From an uncultured Opitutales bacterium (lineage in GTDB: Bacteria > Verrucomicrobiota > Verrucomicrobiia > Opitutales > Intestinicryptomonadaceae): a DNA stretch of 64,000 bases. A program made the position numbers and the translations under genes. Below the pieces are notes generated by a model, which had not been told where the DNA came from, did no database searches, and was given only the letters and a program-made list of their open reading frames with translations. The DNA is taken from assembly GCA_944389215.1 (NCBI GenBank), contig CALXLN010000009.1, positions 1 to 64,000 on the forward strand. The letters run 5' to 3'. Of this stretch, positions 37,987-43,582 are shown one piece after another (within the stretch, counting starts at the first letter, position 1; each line of letters starts with the position of its first letter).

Positions 37987-40695
37987 TTAGGATGGATTCA
38001 AAAATTTTTTCACGCAATCAATAAAAGTGTCGTCGCTAAAACTGCTTTTAGTAAGATGCATATTTGCGCCTACTTCCAAGCTGCGCTCGCCGTCCTCTCG
38101 CCTGTCTTTATACGAAACCATTATGATGGGCACAAGCTTGTCGCGCGCGCGGATTTTCTTTACAAGCTCGAAACCGTTCATGCGGGGCATATCGATGTCG
38201 CTGACAATCAGGTCGTAGTGGTTCAGGCGCACGCAATTCCAGCCGTCGACGCCGTCGGATGCAAGTTCAACCGCAAATCCCGCCTGCTGCAGTATCTTGC
38301 GCTGGGTCTCGCGGACCGTCGCCGAATCGTCCACAACCAAAATTTTTTTTGCGGCGGATTTCTCCGAAACTCCAGTTGCATTGTCGACCGATTCGGAGCT
38401 TTCCAATACCTTTTTTGCGGACAATATGATGTCGTCTATATCTAGAATTAACACCGGGGCGCCGTCCTCCGCAATGGAAGTCGCCGACACGCACTGTACC
38501 TTGCCCAATAGCGGATGAAGCGGGCGCACAACCAAATCGACCTCAAAAGGCATATCGTCGACCTCGAAACCGAAAGACTCGTGCGCGCCTGCAACCACAA
38601 CTACATATGAAAAATCCGAATCTGTTCTCAACTTTTCAAAACCCAGCGCGCGCGCGGCATCCACAAGAGCAACCTTCCGATTTGAATGCAAGAAATACCT
38701 GCGCCCGCCCTCAAAAGAAATTTCATCCCTCCTAACAATGGCAGTCGCCGAAACTTTGCTCAATGGAAATGCATACAACTGTCCGTCTATGGACGCGCCC
38801 AAAGATTTCATCACTGACCTTGTAATCGGAAGACGCATAGTAAAAGAAGTTCCAACTCCGACCTCCGACTCCACCTCTATTGTGCCGCCAACCTCTTGAA
38901 GCATCGTATGGACTATATCCAACCCTACGCCCCTGCCGCTCAGCTTGCTCACATTCTCCTTTGTGGTAAATCCAGGCAAAAACAGGAACGCCATAATTTC
39001 CTGTCCGCTCATATTTTCAAGCATCTCTGGAGTTGCCAATTTTTTTTGCAGTATCTTTTCACGGATTTTGCCGATATCCATTCCAACACCGTCGTCCGAA
39101 ACCTTCAGCATCAGAAATCCCGCCGCATGCCATGCCTTTATTGATATCCTTCCTTTGGCGGGTTTGCCCAGAGCCGCGCGCTCATCCGGAGACTCTATGC
39201 CGTGGTCGCAGGCGTTGCGCAATATTTGGGTAAGCGGAGACTCCAATTTGTCTAGCACGTCCCTGTCGACGGGAACGTCGCGCCCGTCTATTTCCAATAT
39301 TATTTTTTTGCCCGCCGACTTAGCCAAATCGCGGACCATTCTGGGAAACATCTGCACACCCTCGGCCAGCGGACGCATCTTGCTCGCCAACACTTCGGAG
39401 TAAAGGCGCGATGAAAGCTGCGCGCTTCTGCGCGAGTATTCGCCTATTTCCCCGATTTGCGCGCGCAAATCGGCAAGCGTGGACTCCATACCCCTGCGCA
39501 CGGATTCTATGCGTTCCATCGACGATTCCGCTCCGCGCACGCCCTCGAGCAAACAAAGCGCCTGCTCCAAAACTCCAGCCAGCCTTTGCTGGGATGTTTT
39601 CAGCTCCGACAAATTCTCGCGGAAAATTTCTATTTTTGCGTTTTCAACCAGAGACTCCGCCGCAAGCTCCATCAAAGCGCGCAAATTTTTTGCCGACACT
39701 TTTACGGCAGAATCGCGCGCGGCTCCATTCCTGCGCCCCGCCCCCGAAAGTTGCGACACCGACAGCTGCGGAAACTGAATGGAATCTTCATGCGAATTTG
39801 AATCGGAAACAGGAGAGCGAGCATCCAAAACCGCTCCGCCGGACGCGGACTCTTCCGGTCCTACCGTAGAAGCCGGACCGGCGCCCGACGCTAGCGCACC
39901 AAGGGCGTCCATGCACTCTTTGAGCTTCGCCTTGTCTATCTTTGAAAATTTTATCTCACAAAGAGAATAAATAAAATCCACGCAATCCAATATCACGTCT
40001 AAAGAATCGCTGTCCAACTCCATCTCGGAATTCTGCGCGGCAACAAAGCAATCCTCCATTTTATGGGTCAAATCCACTATATCCGAAAGCCCCACTACGC
40101 GCGCAGCGCCCTTCATGCTGTGGCAGGCGCGCATCAGGCGCTCCAGTTTCTGGGGATTTTTAAAATCGTCCTCAATGTCGATCAAAAGCTGGCCCATATT
40201 GGCAAGCTGCGCGCGAGTTTCGTCTAAAAACATCGCCGCCATGGAATCGTCTGCATCCAACGCGGACTTGCCTTCCGAATCCGGCGCAGAATCCTGTTCC
40301 CGCAAATTTTGCGGCGCAGCTGAATGTTCCTGGGGAGGTAGAGATACGCCCTCCTCCAAAACCGACGACAAAGCCGACGACGACGACTCTATCTTTTGCT
40401 CCAATTCAAGCAGCGGCGCATCCGCGCAATCCGAAAGAATTTTAACGACCCGCGCGGCGGCAGAATCTTCTGAGGGTCTCCCCCCTCCCGTTGCGAAGGC
40501 ATTTTCCAACGCCTGGCATGCGCCGGCAAACACTTCAAACCCCAACATTTTGGCATCCGCCTTTAACGACGCCGCGGCAGCCCTGCATTCTTCGGGAGAA
40601 AACTCCCCGCCGGAGAATATGTTGGATGACATCGTCGCGCAATGCGCGCGCGCGTCTTTTGAAAAAAGCTCCAACATAAACATATCCGCGCTCAT
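37987..40695 (-). CDS. CheA-type histidine kinase with C-terminal receiver domain (WspE-like)
   Basis: The start at 40695 follows AAGGAAAT and gives about 902 residues. Domain order: an Hpt-like helix bundle (1-100) with Ala42 where the phospho-His should be (ASLKADAKMLGF); a linker; a canonical Hpt with His192 (RACHSMKGAARVVG); dimerisation helices; the ATPase (LRNACDHGIESPDERAALG, VSDDGVGMD, GRGVGLDIVHTMLQEVGG); a CheW-like domain; and a receiver with SDIDMPRMNG. An attached receiver on CheA is the layout of WspE in surface-sensing systems. There is no P2 domain for a separate CheY. It overlaps cheW by four bases (ATGA). Confidence 0.93.
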   Translation of the reverse strand: MSADMFMLELFSKDARAHCATMSSNIFSGGEFSPEECRAAAASLKADAKMLGFEVFAGACQALENAFATGGGRPSEDSAAARVVKILSDCADAPLLELEQKIESSSSALSSVLEEGVSLPPQEHSAAPQNLREQDSAPDSEGKSALDADDSMAAMFLDETRAQLANMGQLLIDIEDDFKNPQKLERLMRACHSMKGAARVVGLSDIVDLTHKMEDCFVAAQNSEMELDSDSLDVILDCVDFIYSLCEIKFSKIDKAKLKECMDALGALASGAGPASTVGPEESASGGAVLDARSPVSDSNSHEDSIQFPQLSVSQLSGAGRRNGAARDSAVKVSAKNLRALMELAAESLVENAKIEIFRENLSELKTSQQRLAGVLEQALCLLEGVRGAESSMERIESVRRGMESTLADLRAQIGEIGEYSRRSAQLSSRLYSEVLASKMRPLAEGVQMFPRMVRDLAKSAGKKIILEIDGRDVPVDRDVLDKLESPLTQILRNACDHGIESPDERAALGKPAKGRISIKAWHAAGFLMLKVSDDGVGMDIGKIREKILQKKLATPEMLENMSGQEIMAFLFLPGFTTKENVSKLSGRGVGLDIVHTMLQEVGGTIEVESEVGVGTSFTMRLPITRSVMKSLGASIDGQLYAFPLSKVSATAIVRRDEISFEGGRRYFLHSNRKVALVDAARALGFEKLRTDSDFSYVVVVAGAHESFGFEVDDMPFEVDLVVRPLHPLLGKVQCVSATSIAEDGAPVLILDIDDIILSAKKVLESSESVDNATGVSEKSAAKKILVVDDSATVRETQRKILQQAGFAVELASDGVDGWNCVRLNHYDLIVSDIDMPRMNGFELVKKIRARDKLVPIIMVSYKDRREDGERSLEVGANMHLTKSSFSDDTFIDCVKKFLNPS

Positions 40696-41357
40696 AAATA
40701 TTTCCTTGTAAGTGCGTGAAAAAACAGTTCGCAATCTATCAATAGAAATTTCTGCCCGTTATGGAGAAAGAACCCGTAAATGAATGCGGCGTAGGGCTTG
40801 TCGTCTTCAAACGGCAAAAGTTCCCGCTCCCCGGCGCGCGCGACCCCCCATACGAAATCCGCGTTAAAAGCGAATTTATCATCTCCGGCGGCGCACACCA
40901 CCATTTTTCCGGCGTCGCATTTGGATTGGCCCAAATCCATCAGTCTGAGGATGTCAACCGTTATCACAAGCTCTCCGTTTATGTTTGAAAGCCCGGACAA
41001 CACTTTGTCTTTGCGGTGCGGTATGCGGTGCGTCGGGCGCGAATTGGCTATTTCCCTCACAACCTCCATAGGCAGCGCAAAATTAAAATCCGCGCACTTA
41101 AAAAGCAGATACGAACGCTCCTTGCCCGTTCTGTCGCCCGCAGGGATAGGCTCGGAAGGCTCCGAACCGCCCGCTGGCGCAGACGCCTCGCCGTCCTTTC
41201 TGCCGCGGCGAACGCGCTCTATGAAATCCGCCCCCGCCCGCATGTACACCGCGCAATTATGGCAATGCCCAACGCGCGCGAGTTCGGGACAAACGGCGTC
41301 GCCCCAAATTCCATCCGTCGCCCAGCAGCGGGCGGCTATCTTCTTTTCAAAATCCAT
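40692..41357 (-). CDS. CheW-type coupling protein with N-terminal Cys motif (WspD-like)
   Basis: The ATG at 41357 gives 221 residues; it shares one base with the MCP stop (TGATG). The C-terminal half is a CheW fold (SYLLFKCADFNFALPMEVV, LSNINGELVITVDILRLMD). The N-terminus has four Cys spaced C-x12-C-x8-C-x2-C, with the text CPELARVGHCHNCAVYMRAG. I recall the same CPEL...CxNCPVY pattern in WspD-type CheW proteins, where its role (metal binding or redox) is not established. It would link the receptor to the kinase at the membrane. Confidence 0.9.
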   Translation of the reverse strand: MDFEKKIAARCWATDGIWGDAVCPELARVGHCHNCAVYMRAGADFIERVRRGRKDGEASAPAGGSEPSEPIPAGDRTGKERSYLLFKCADFNFALPMEVVREIANSRPTHRIPHRKDKVLSGLSNINGELVITVDILRLMDLGQSKCDAGKMVVCAAGDDKFAFNADFVWGVARAGERELLPFEDDKPYAAFIYGFFLHNGQKFLLIDCELFFHALTRKYL

Positions 41358-43582
41358 CAACCGTTATTGGACGAGTCTGGTTTTATGTCTTTTATATCTT
41401 CGCGCATTCTGACTACCGCAGCTCTCAAGCGTTCCCTGCTTTCGACCGCCAAACGAATAAGTTCGGACGTGTGCTCCATTCCGGCGTCAAGGTTTGCAAG
41501 ATTGGCGTTTATGTCGGATACGGATTCGCGCTGCCAGCCTATTCCGCCAGAAAGCGACTCCACCTGCGGGGCAACCGACTGAATTTTCGTAATTGCCGAG
41601 TCCATTGCCGCCACAACCGACGCCATCTGCCCGGCGGCCCCCTCGACTTCGGCCGCAAAATTCTTAACCTCCGCGGCTCCCGCATCCACCGCCGACTTCA
41701 TCTCCTTCATTATAGCGTCTATGTCCGACGTGGCAACCGCCGTCTGTTCCGCAAGCCTCCCTATTTCGCGCGCAACCACGGCGAATCCCACTCCGTAGGA
41801 GCCAGCCTTTTCCGCCTCTATCGAAGCGTTCAATGAAAGCAGATTGGTTTCGTCGGCAACCTTCGACACGGCAGTAACAACGCTGTTGACGCTATTGGCG
41901 CGCTCGCTTATTATCGAAAATCTGCGCGCAATGGCGGACGTATTTGCGGAGAGGCCGGAAACTATGTCGTTCAACAGCGATACGTTTCTGCGGCCGTTCT
42001 CGGCCATTTCGGAGGCGTCGTTGGCGGCCGCGCATACGGACTCCGCATTTTTGGAAAGTTCCGCTGCGTTGTCGCCTATGCTGCGCACGGCGTGCGACAC
42101 AGAAGACGCAGATTTTCCAAAATCGGCTATGGCGCTTTCGCAATTGGCGGAAACCCGTTCTATAGAAGCGGACGCAGATTCCAATTGAGTCTGAGAATCC
42201 TCTATTTGGCGCGCCGACGTCCTAAGCTTGCGCGCCATGTTGGACATCGACAAAAGCAGCTGGGATGTTTCGTCGTTAGACTTCGACACGGTTATTTCGA
42301 CGTCAAAGTTGCCTGCCGCAATTTCGTCAGCGACGGCGGTAGCGCGCGTTACGCGCCTGAGAATCGCGTTTGCAAACAGTATGGAGGCAATGAATATCAG
42401 CGCAAAAACTCCCATCTCAATAAGTTCAGCCCTGATGTACGCATACACCGGCGCAAGGACCTCGGATTGCGGCATAATTTGCACCACAACCCAATTTCCG
42501 GGGCGTATCAAAGCTTGCGATACGCAATACGAGCGTTTAGTCTTGGAATCCTTAAAATACGACACAGCCCGCTCGCCTTCGGAAAGCAGGCCGGCATTTT
42601 TTGCCTTGTCGAAGGCGGAGCTCAAAATATCCCTATAAGACGTTCCTAGCTTAGCCACATCCGTTCCCGCGCTGTCGTCCCGCACAAGCCTTCCGTTTTC
42701 GTCTCGCAAAAACGACATCACAAAAGCTCCCGCATCGTCGGTGTACAAGTCGTATATCGAAAGCGTGCGCAGATTCTGATTTTTTGTGCAGGCAATTATT
42801 CTGGCCTGTGAGCTCAAAAGAAATATCTCAGATTGTGCGCTGGTTTTCAAATTTGCCACGAAATTGGAAAAATTCGTAAGGTCTCTGTCAAACGCGACCT
42901 GCCCCATAAATCTGCCGTCCTGCAAAATCGGAGCGGAATATTCCACCATAAGAACCTTGTTGTTGTACAAATAAGGTTCGGTAACTATGAAGTGCTCAGA
43001 ACTTCCTGAATCGAGTTTCTTCTTTAGTCCTGCCGAATACATCGACGAACCCATGTCGACAAGAGGCTCAAGTTCCAAATCTCCCTTCGCCCTGTTCCAA
43101 TAGGCGGCAAACCTTCCGCCTTCGGATTTTGCGAGCCATTCGTCGTAGCTTACTGATGTGGGGTTTGACCTGAAATTGTACGAATCCACGGCGTCGTCAA
43201 AAGTCGCCTCCCTGCCGTCGCGAAGATTTCTTATTCCGCGCTCCGAACGGAAGTCGTTGAGGTCGGCGTTTACCTCATAACCGATGCTTGCTCCGATAAA
43301 GGCAGGAAAAATCTGCAAAAGTTCCCTTATGTAGGTTGTGCTATTGGAACGGTCCGCAAACCACACGTTGGCCGCTGTCGCGGCGGTGCGCGAAACTGAT
43401 ACGCCGTTCTCGTTTTCGCGCGCTATTTTTAAGGCTATGTTTTCGGTATGCGACAGAAATTTTTCTTCGGCAAGCGCCTTGAGCGCATTGTAGTTGCCTA
43501 TGCCGTTAACGAGCGAAACCGCCAAGTCCGTAACAAAAATTGGCGCAATTATGAACAGGGCGATTTTTGTCTTTATCCTCAT
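41357..43582 (-). CDS. Methyl-accepting chemotaxis receptor with periplasmic sensor domain
   Basis: The 741-residue receptor has a membrane helix at residues 7-28, a large periplasmic sensor (about 30-387, a double-Cache-like fold by length and by DxYNFRSNP...YWNRAKGDL...VEYSAPILQDGRFMGQVAFD features), a second helix at 388-408 (MGVFALIFIASILFANAI), a HAMP-like segment and a cytoplasmic coiled coil. The kinase-contact tip is NLLSLNASIEAEKAGSYGVG followed by FAVVAREIGRLAEQT, well conserved. Double-Cache domains bind small molecules; the ligand is unknown. First gene of the operon; no CheR or CheB gene follows. Confidence 0.93.
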   Translation of the reverse strand: MRIKTKIALFIIAPIFVTDLAVSLVNGIGNYNALKALAEEKFLSHTENIALKIARENENGVSVSRTAATAANVWFADRSNSTTYIRELLQIFPAFIGASIGYEVNADLNDFRSERGIRNLRDGREATFDDAVDSYNFRSNPTSVSYDEWLAKSEGGRFAAYWNRAKGDLELEPLVDMGSSMYSAGLKKKLDSGSSEHFIVTEPYLYNNKVLMVEYSAPILQDGRFMGQVAFDRDLTNFSNFVANLKTSAQSEIFLLSSQARIIACTKNQNLRTLSIYDLYTDDAGAFVMSFLRDENGRLVRDDSAGTDVAKLGTSYRDILSSAFDKAKNAGLLSEGERAVSYFKDSKTKRSYCVSQALIRPGNWVVVQIMPQSEVLAPVYAYIRAELIEMGVFALIFIASILFANAILRRVTRATAVADEIAAGNFDVEITVSKSNDETSQLLLSMSNMARKLRTSARQIEDSQTQLESASASIERVSANCESAIADFGKSASSVSHAVRSIGDNAAELSKNAESVCAAANDASEMAENGRRNVSLLNDIVSGLSANTSAIARRFSIISERANSVNSVVTAVSKVADETNLLSLNASIEAEKAGSYGVGFAVVAREIGRLAEQTAVATSDIDAIMKEMKSAVDAGAAEVKNFAAEVEGAAGQMASVVAAMDSAITKIQSVAPQVESLSGGIGWQRESVSDINANLANLDAGMEHTSELIRLAVESRERLRAAVVRMREDIKDIKPDSSNNG

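Follow-up and report, generated by a model that had tools for sequence, protein, structure and literature searches.

A reduced Wsp-type chemosensory operon in an Opitutales bacterium and its likely output through an unlinked REC-PP2C phosphatase

The window analysed here, the whole stretch of 64,000 nucleotides from an uncultured Opitutales bacterium, contains a cluster of only three chemosensory genes, encoding an MCP, a CheW and a CheA. The question raised by this locus is how such a cluster came to stand without adaptation genes and to which output it delivers its signal. The window genome (G000) is a 2.4 Mb assembly of 136 contigs, 80.3% complete, and was compared with a family sample of 19 genomes, 18 of them readable, of which 11 were CheA-positive and 7 CheA-negative. 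The congener G010, a single contig listed as 95% complete, was left out of the counts, having given zero matches, PNPase included.

Structure of the operon and phylogeny of its kinase

The genes for MCP, CheW and CheA are all complete, tightly coupled and located on the minus strand. The WspA-type MCP of 741 aa (41357..43582) has a HAMP domain (42221-42379, Pfam 5.6e-8) and a signalling domain (41486-42025, Pfam MCPsignal 5.6e-23), and its periplasmic part is possibly dCache-like, with 24.5 bits to MCP-like_PDC_1, under the cut-off of 27. A WspD-type CheW of 221 aa (40692..41357, Pfam CheW 6e-17) and a WspE-type CheA-REC hybrid kinase of 902 aa (37987..40695), assigned by Pfam Hpt, HATPase_c, CheW and Response_reg and by the CheA tree, complete the operon. 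Direct reading of the junctions showed that the MCP stop overlaps the CheW start in ggTGATGgat and the CheW stop the CheA start in ttATGAgc, and together with the Pfam matches this confirms the arrangement of MCP, CheW and receiver-bearing CheA described in the first-pass annotation. The CheA open frame begins at a TTG further upstream, and translation likely starts at the ATG (40695) within the ATGA junction. The CPEL and CHNC residues, which had been regarded as a Wsp feature, belong to an N-terminal Cys motif of CheW, CW..GIWGD..CPEL..HCHNCAVY (41244..41327), identified by sequence comparison with WspD and indeed shared by the WspD proteins of Mesorhizobium and Azoarcus. This motif was present in 20 of 39 WspD-like neighbours and in 0 of 40 WspB-like neighbours.

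The Pfam order of CheA is Hpt (in two stretches), HATPase, CheW and REC. By alignment, the functional Hpt (P1; 39976..40242, Pfam Hpt 5.4e-22) has an intact His (ACHSMKG), and the C-terminal receiver (38041..38343, Pfam Response_reg 3.8e-26) has its DD, Asp and Lys intact. The P1 His was kept in all 18 aligned CheAs and, together with the catalytic motifs, in every family CheA. An extra N-terminal domain (40342..40695) has the Hpt fold without a phospho-accepting His (pseudo-Hpt), as judged from alignment and a model. It was found in 11 of 11 family CheAs and was absent from the five other Opitutales CheAs and two WspE references aligned. The pseudo-Hpt of the window CheA was modelled as five helices (pLDDT 81.5), the best PDB matches being CheA P1 domains with probability 1.00 and a weak E of about 0.02; CheAs with His-less Hpt domains are already known (PMC10782961).

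In a tree of 84 kinase cores the window CheA fell into a 68-row clade (100/99) with the WspE-type proteins of Mesorhizobium, Azoarcus, Cupriavidus, Novosphingobium and Burkholderia, separate from E. coli CheA and the other flagellar-type Opitutales CheAs. Its own clade of 12 rows (99/81) consists of the family and G037, and the five WspE-type references form with G052 a subclade (99/97) that does not include the window CheA. The Mesorhizobium and Azoarcus references come from operons annotated in wsp order, the last gene of which encodes a diguanylate cyclase or a PleD-type regulator; Cupriavidus and Novosphingobium have, by similarity, a WspR-like gene in the same place, and Burkholderia has none. 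The phylogeny that the first-pass annotation had proposed as a check thus groups the core with WspE and away from the flagellar-type CheAs. FlhA/FHIPEP, the flagellar export gene, had no match in the window genome and was found in 0 of 19 family genomes, in keeping with the earlier remarks that the system is Wsp-like and non-flagellar and that no flagellar gene is seen. With a CheA core outside the flagellar classes, in a tree without labelled Tfp references, and with this FHIPEP result, the system is non-flagellar in the sense of the ACF class.

Gene loss and receptor complement

The window genome has one CheA gene and one CheW gene. No second CheW (WspB) was found in this 80% complete assembly, the only other CheW domain being that inside CheA. 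CheR and CheB gave 0 matches across the whole assembly (80.3% complete), and GGDEF was found neither there nor elsewhere in the search of 19 family genomes. The genome search for WspR-like GGDEF, CheR and CheB, suggested in the first-pass annotation, thereby extends its observation that none of the three is adjacent to the operon to the whole 80% complete genome, and the congeners agree as to CheR and CheB. Among the 11 CheA-positive family genomes G001, G014 and G016 alone had these two genes, in each case next to CheA, the presence of CheB in relatives resting on a PF01339 search. Neither was found in the CheA-positive congeners G003, G004, G005, G008, G009, G012 and G013 (92-97% complete), and because these seven near-complete genomes also lack both, the absence in the window genome is credible despite its 80% completeness.

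The full order MCP-CheW-CheR-CheW-CheA-CheB, corresponding to wspA to wspF, is present in G001, G014, G016, G037, G026 and G052. A-B-D-E is retained in G004, G008 and G012 and likewise, judged by spacing, in G005, and A-D-E in the window genome, G003, G009 and G013. In the operons of relatives CheR and CheB were placed by Pfam searches and the remaining genes by similarity; the WspB-type CheW was verified by Pfam in G001 and G008 and assigned elsewhere by position and length. The window operon is a reduced Wsp operon (wspA-wspD-wspE) derived from the complete wspABCDEF order. CheR and CheB disappeared jointly from most of the genus, and the window genome has also lost WspB. The earlier description of an operon without adaptation genes is accordingly right in that CheR and CheB are absent and is corrected in that the absence is a within-genus loss from an operon of complete Wsp order. 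The CheW Cys motif is also gone in G003 and G013. On the PNPase tree the presence of CheA needs at least three changes and that of CheR/CheB among CheA-positive genomes at least two, the within-genus branches being weakly supported.

Since CheR and CheB were lost together, the array in the living cell would be without methylation-based adaptation. The operon MCP of the window has no consensus methylation site. The motif, 108 residues ahead of the tip, occurs in the WspA references, G026 and G052 and in none of the family operon MCPs scored, CheR-positive genomes included (those of G003, G009 and G012 were outside the scoring). That methylation sites decay only once CheR/CheB are lost is unsupported because family MCPs lack the motif even where CheR is present, and site loss does not simply track enzyme loss.

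The operon cluster is not the whole chemosensory system, as the window genome has four MCP genes, three of them on contig C101. Two of these are tandem genes (L008:3464-5698 and L008:5695-7887) with Cache_3-Cache_2 sensors and a 4-base overlap, and such pairs are present in most CheA-positive family genomes. The tandem Cache MCPs of C101 probably feed the same single CheA as the operon MCP. The third, a divergent MCP gene (L007:7782-9734) in whose product no Pfam sensor or HAMP was found, adjoins GspF-, GspE- and GspD-like secretion genes (L007:9778-16040).

The REC-PP2C phosphatase and its candidate partners

Four receiver domains occur in the window genome: that of CheA, one PhoB-like, one NtrC-like and that of a REC-SpoIIE phosphatase. 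The last, a REC-PP2C (SpoIIE-type) phosphatase of 422 aa, is encoded at G000:C31:5081-6349 on a separate contig from the operon, and throughout the family it is unlinked to the che operon. Orthologues (>300 bits) were found in 11 of 11 CheA-positive and 0 of 7 readable CheA-negative family genomes. Outside the family the matches in G037, G027, G030 and G023 range from 289 down to 177 bits, and no other PP2C in the comparison reached 80 bits. The receiver Asp and the PP2C active-site acids are conserved in 12 of 12 aligned REC-PP2Cs, and the G030 protein is without part of the receiver acidic pocket. An RsbW-like HATPase gene (Pfam HATPase_c_2 7e-23) directly follows REC-PP2C in 11 of 11 family genomes, its products having Ala instead of Gly in the G1 box.

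In G027, from another family of the order, the REC-PP2C orthologue is directly downstream of CheA, and in G023 and G037 it is located elsewhere in the genome. Named genomes were scanned with the aligned REC-PP2C family, giving 589 relatives, and among the best 80 loci CheA was found within 10 kb in 52 and some che gene in 58; 34 of the 80 have CheB immediately upstream of REC-PP2C, which there holds the wspR position. An RsbW-like gene was near CheA in only 8 of the best 80 loci, and STAS was present in 5. These 80 loci span about ten phyla (Planctomycetota, Lentisphaerota, Acidobacteriota, Thermodesulfobacteriota, Ignavibacteriota, Elusimicrobiota, Chlamydiota, Myxococcota, Pseudomonadota and Verrucomicrobiota), and locus L220 displays the order MCP-CheW-CheR-CheW-CheA-CheB-PP2C-RsbW-STAS. 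Cultivable carriers of a REC-PP2C-linked operon include Zavarzinella formosa and Limnoglobus roseus. Five Planctomycete CheAs near REC-PP2C fall in the flagellar-type clade of the CheA tree, so that being neighbours need not always mean that the two proteins are paired. Across 11 genomes the pairwise CheA distances correlated with those of REC-PP2C when PNPase was allowed for (partial r = 0.52, permutation p = 0.014). On the PNPase tree the co-occurrence of the two comes down to about three independent events, a number that gives a sign test too little power.

No REC-PP2C was found in G026 and G052, both with the full operon and a hybrid histidine kinase downstream, and outputs therefore differ within the order. 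These hybrid kinases after CheB were at first read as REC-PP2C on account of the shared receiver and were dropped when Pfam gave HisKA-HATPase-REC3. In two Methylococcaceae loci (L253 and L262) the wsp-like operon has a WspR-like gene at one of its ends and, at the other, a REC-PP2C gene in divergent orientation, possibly a dual output.

The pairing of CheA with REC-PP2C rests on their co-occurrence, on how the genes are ordered in other bacteria and on their correlated divergence, and from these sequence comparisons the most likely output of the operon would be the unlinked REC-PP2C and then the RsbW-like kinase. The first-pass view of an operon without output is corrected to this extent, as both genes are co-inherited with the operon and REC-PP2C adjoins it in many other bacteria, and its guess of an unlinked output protein is the option with the strongest backing.

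A candidate STAS protein is encoded on another contig, C127, and scores over the cut-off for the NCBIfam superfamily TIGR00377 (anti-sigma factor antagonist). Its alignment contains an ISSAGL stretch, which we take to be where SpoIIAA/RsbV-type antagonists carry the phosphorylatable Ser. STAS is linked to PP2C/RsbW in L220, L221 and L241, and G037 carries, 205 bp upstream of the operon, a STAS gene resembling that of C127. The C127-type protein is also found in CheA-negative relatives and is thus not specific to the che pathway. In place of REC-PP2C the CheA-negative relatives have a different PP2C, not found in CheA-positive genomes, which in G006 and G011 is an MCP-like_PDC_1-HAMP-SpoIIE protein. 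In L152:142-2058 and L156:1564-3573, from CheA-negative relatives, the MCP-like sensor (PDC) and HAMP are fused straight to PP2C. It looks as though a one-piece sensor phosphatase had replaced the array, a putative link given that proteins of this type are common. Nearly all family genomes, with or without CheA, also have a STAS gene with a GAF-PP2C gene after it (L148:1251-3171), a second, independent partner-switch module.

A probable partner switch as output, its alternatives and its meaning

We consider it probable that an adaptation-free Wsp-type (ACF-class) array drives a partner switch via the unlinked REC-PP2C and not via c-di-GMP. The operon MCP, probably with the three MCPs of C101, would sense periplasmic ligands or the state of the envelope and gate CheA through the WspD-type CheW. 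CheA, whose His and ATP-site motifs are intact, is predicted to phosphorylate its own P1 His, from where the phosphoryl group could pass to the fused receiver, which would tune or drain the signal, and also to the unlinked REC-PP2C. The phosphatase would then dephosphorylate a STAS anti-sigma-antagonist, with the C127 protein as candidate, and the RsbW-like kinase encoded beside it would phosphorylate the same protein. Freed STAS protein may bind the RsbW-like protein and so release a regulatory target, possibly a sigma factor. The stimulus, the phosphotransfer, the STAS substrate and the final target are all putative. Without adaptation such an array should report the absolute level of the stimulus and not its change.

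The first-pass annotation let the signal leave through the attached receiver or through an unlinked protein, and the second part is the better supported. That the signal ends in the receiver of CheA, acting towards an unnamed partner or as a phosphate sink while REC-PP2C serves another kinase, seems rather unlikely. The fused receiver is intact, the operon has no output gene, and a receiver of this kind is frequent in ACF and Tfp CheAs, with a sink as its common role where studied (PMC10782961), yet WspE, which has one too, acts on WspR and WspF as distinct regulators (PMC8552884), and REC-PP2C follows the distribution of CheA within the family and is linked to the operon in many bacteria. Functionless remnants of a decaying system after loss of CheR, CheB and WspB could account for the stepwise gene loss across the genus, the missing methylation site of the operon MCP, the CheW motif lost in G003 and G013 and the long branch of the G013 CheA in the tree. 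This is improbable, however, for an operon that is intact and tight, with the catalytic motifs and the P1 His preserved in every family CheA, four receptors retained and the REC-PP2C and RsbW pair kept in 11 of 11 genomes.

Control of a type IV pilus or a secretion machine, as by Chp or Frz, might be read from the divergent MCP gene beside the GspD/GspE/GspF-like genes of C101. We hold this to be very improbable, as the operon has no such genes, the link to REC-PP2C is much stronger, and the CheA core, in a tree without Tfp references, is of the Wsp-like kind and lies far from the flagellar set. Classical Wsp function, in which surface sensing raises c-di-GMP via an unlinked diguanylate cyclase, would fit the architecture and the CheW motif, but it retains hardly any probability: the GGDEF-type WspE references form a subclade of their own without the window CheA, and the absence of GGDEF from all 19 family genomes searched, the window genome included, nearly refutes the c-di-GMP reading. 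With no c-di-GMP branch, the surface sensing to which the first-pass annotation likened the system is not supported via WspR.

The system that we favour, with REC-PP2C as output, resembles Pseudomonas Wsp (wspABCDEF-wspR) and the Burkholderia WspH variant (PMC8552884) in the gene order of its relatives, the WspD-type motif, the WspE-type CheA-receiver and the shared kinase-core clade, but differs from Wsp in being without wspB, wspC (CheR), wspF (CheB) and GGDEF and in its likely output, the unlinked REC-PP2C. Wsp has been described as confined to beta- and gammaproteobacteria and as never without WspB or WspD (PMC8552884); neither statement holds for the operons described here if these are counted as Wsp. 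The ACF survey (PMC3447774), as far as it is considered here, lists fusions of a receiver domain with a protein phosphatase among the regulators of CheR-TPR clusters, and the TPR matches in the CheR of G001 recall these clusters, whereas RsbW/STAS partners or members without CheR/CheB are not named in the same parts of the survey. REC-PP2C would be an ACF-type multidomain (non-CheY) output regulator, going by co-occurrence and by linkage elsewhere, and in the window genome it is unlinked. In Shewanella oneidensis the Che1 chemosensory cluster is genetically tied to the CrsR/CrsA partner switch of a response regulator and an anti-sigma-factor antagonist (PMC9855816). Che1 is, however, an F7-type array with CheY, CheR, CheD and CheB, whereas the window kinase is Wsp-like, and CrsR has its own anti-sigma domain, whereas the RsbW-like protein here is a separate gene (PMC9855816). 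The PP2C phosphatase, RsbW-like HATPase and STAS antagonist (TIGR00377 over cut-off) are like RsbU/RsbV/RsbW, but the RsbW-like protein scores 39 of 145 bits with the RsbW equivalog models, far below cut-off, and a sigma factor is here only a possible target. Receiver-phosphatase outputs of ACF clusters and the Shewanella che-partner-switch cluster are thus already known; literature joining Wsp-type operons to REC-PP2C, RsbW and STAS was not found in a search omitting most subscription journals.

CheR and CheB are usually treated as core array parts, and a genus in which both are lost and the array, the kinase and the likely output are kept offers a natural test of the purpose of adaptation where no motility is steered. 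A concrete candidate output is given for a kind of Wsp-like operon found across about ten phyla with a REC-PP2C neighbour, suggesting that a partner switch rather than c-di-GMP may often be the target of Wsp-type sensing. We give even chances to the wider view that Wsp-ordered operons driving a PP2C/RsbW/STAS switch constitute a widespread class in about ten phyla, with c-di-GMP output as one branch, in which case this genus would harbour its minimal form, an array working stably without methylation-based adaptation.
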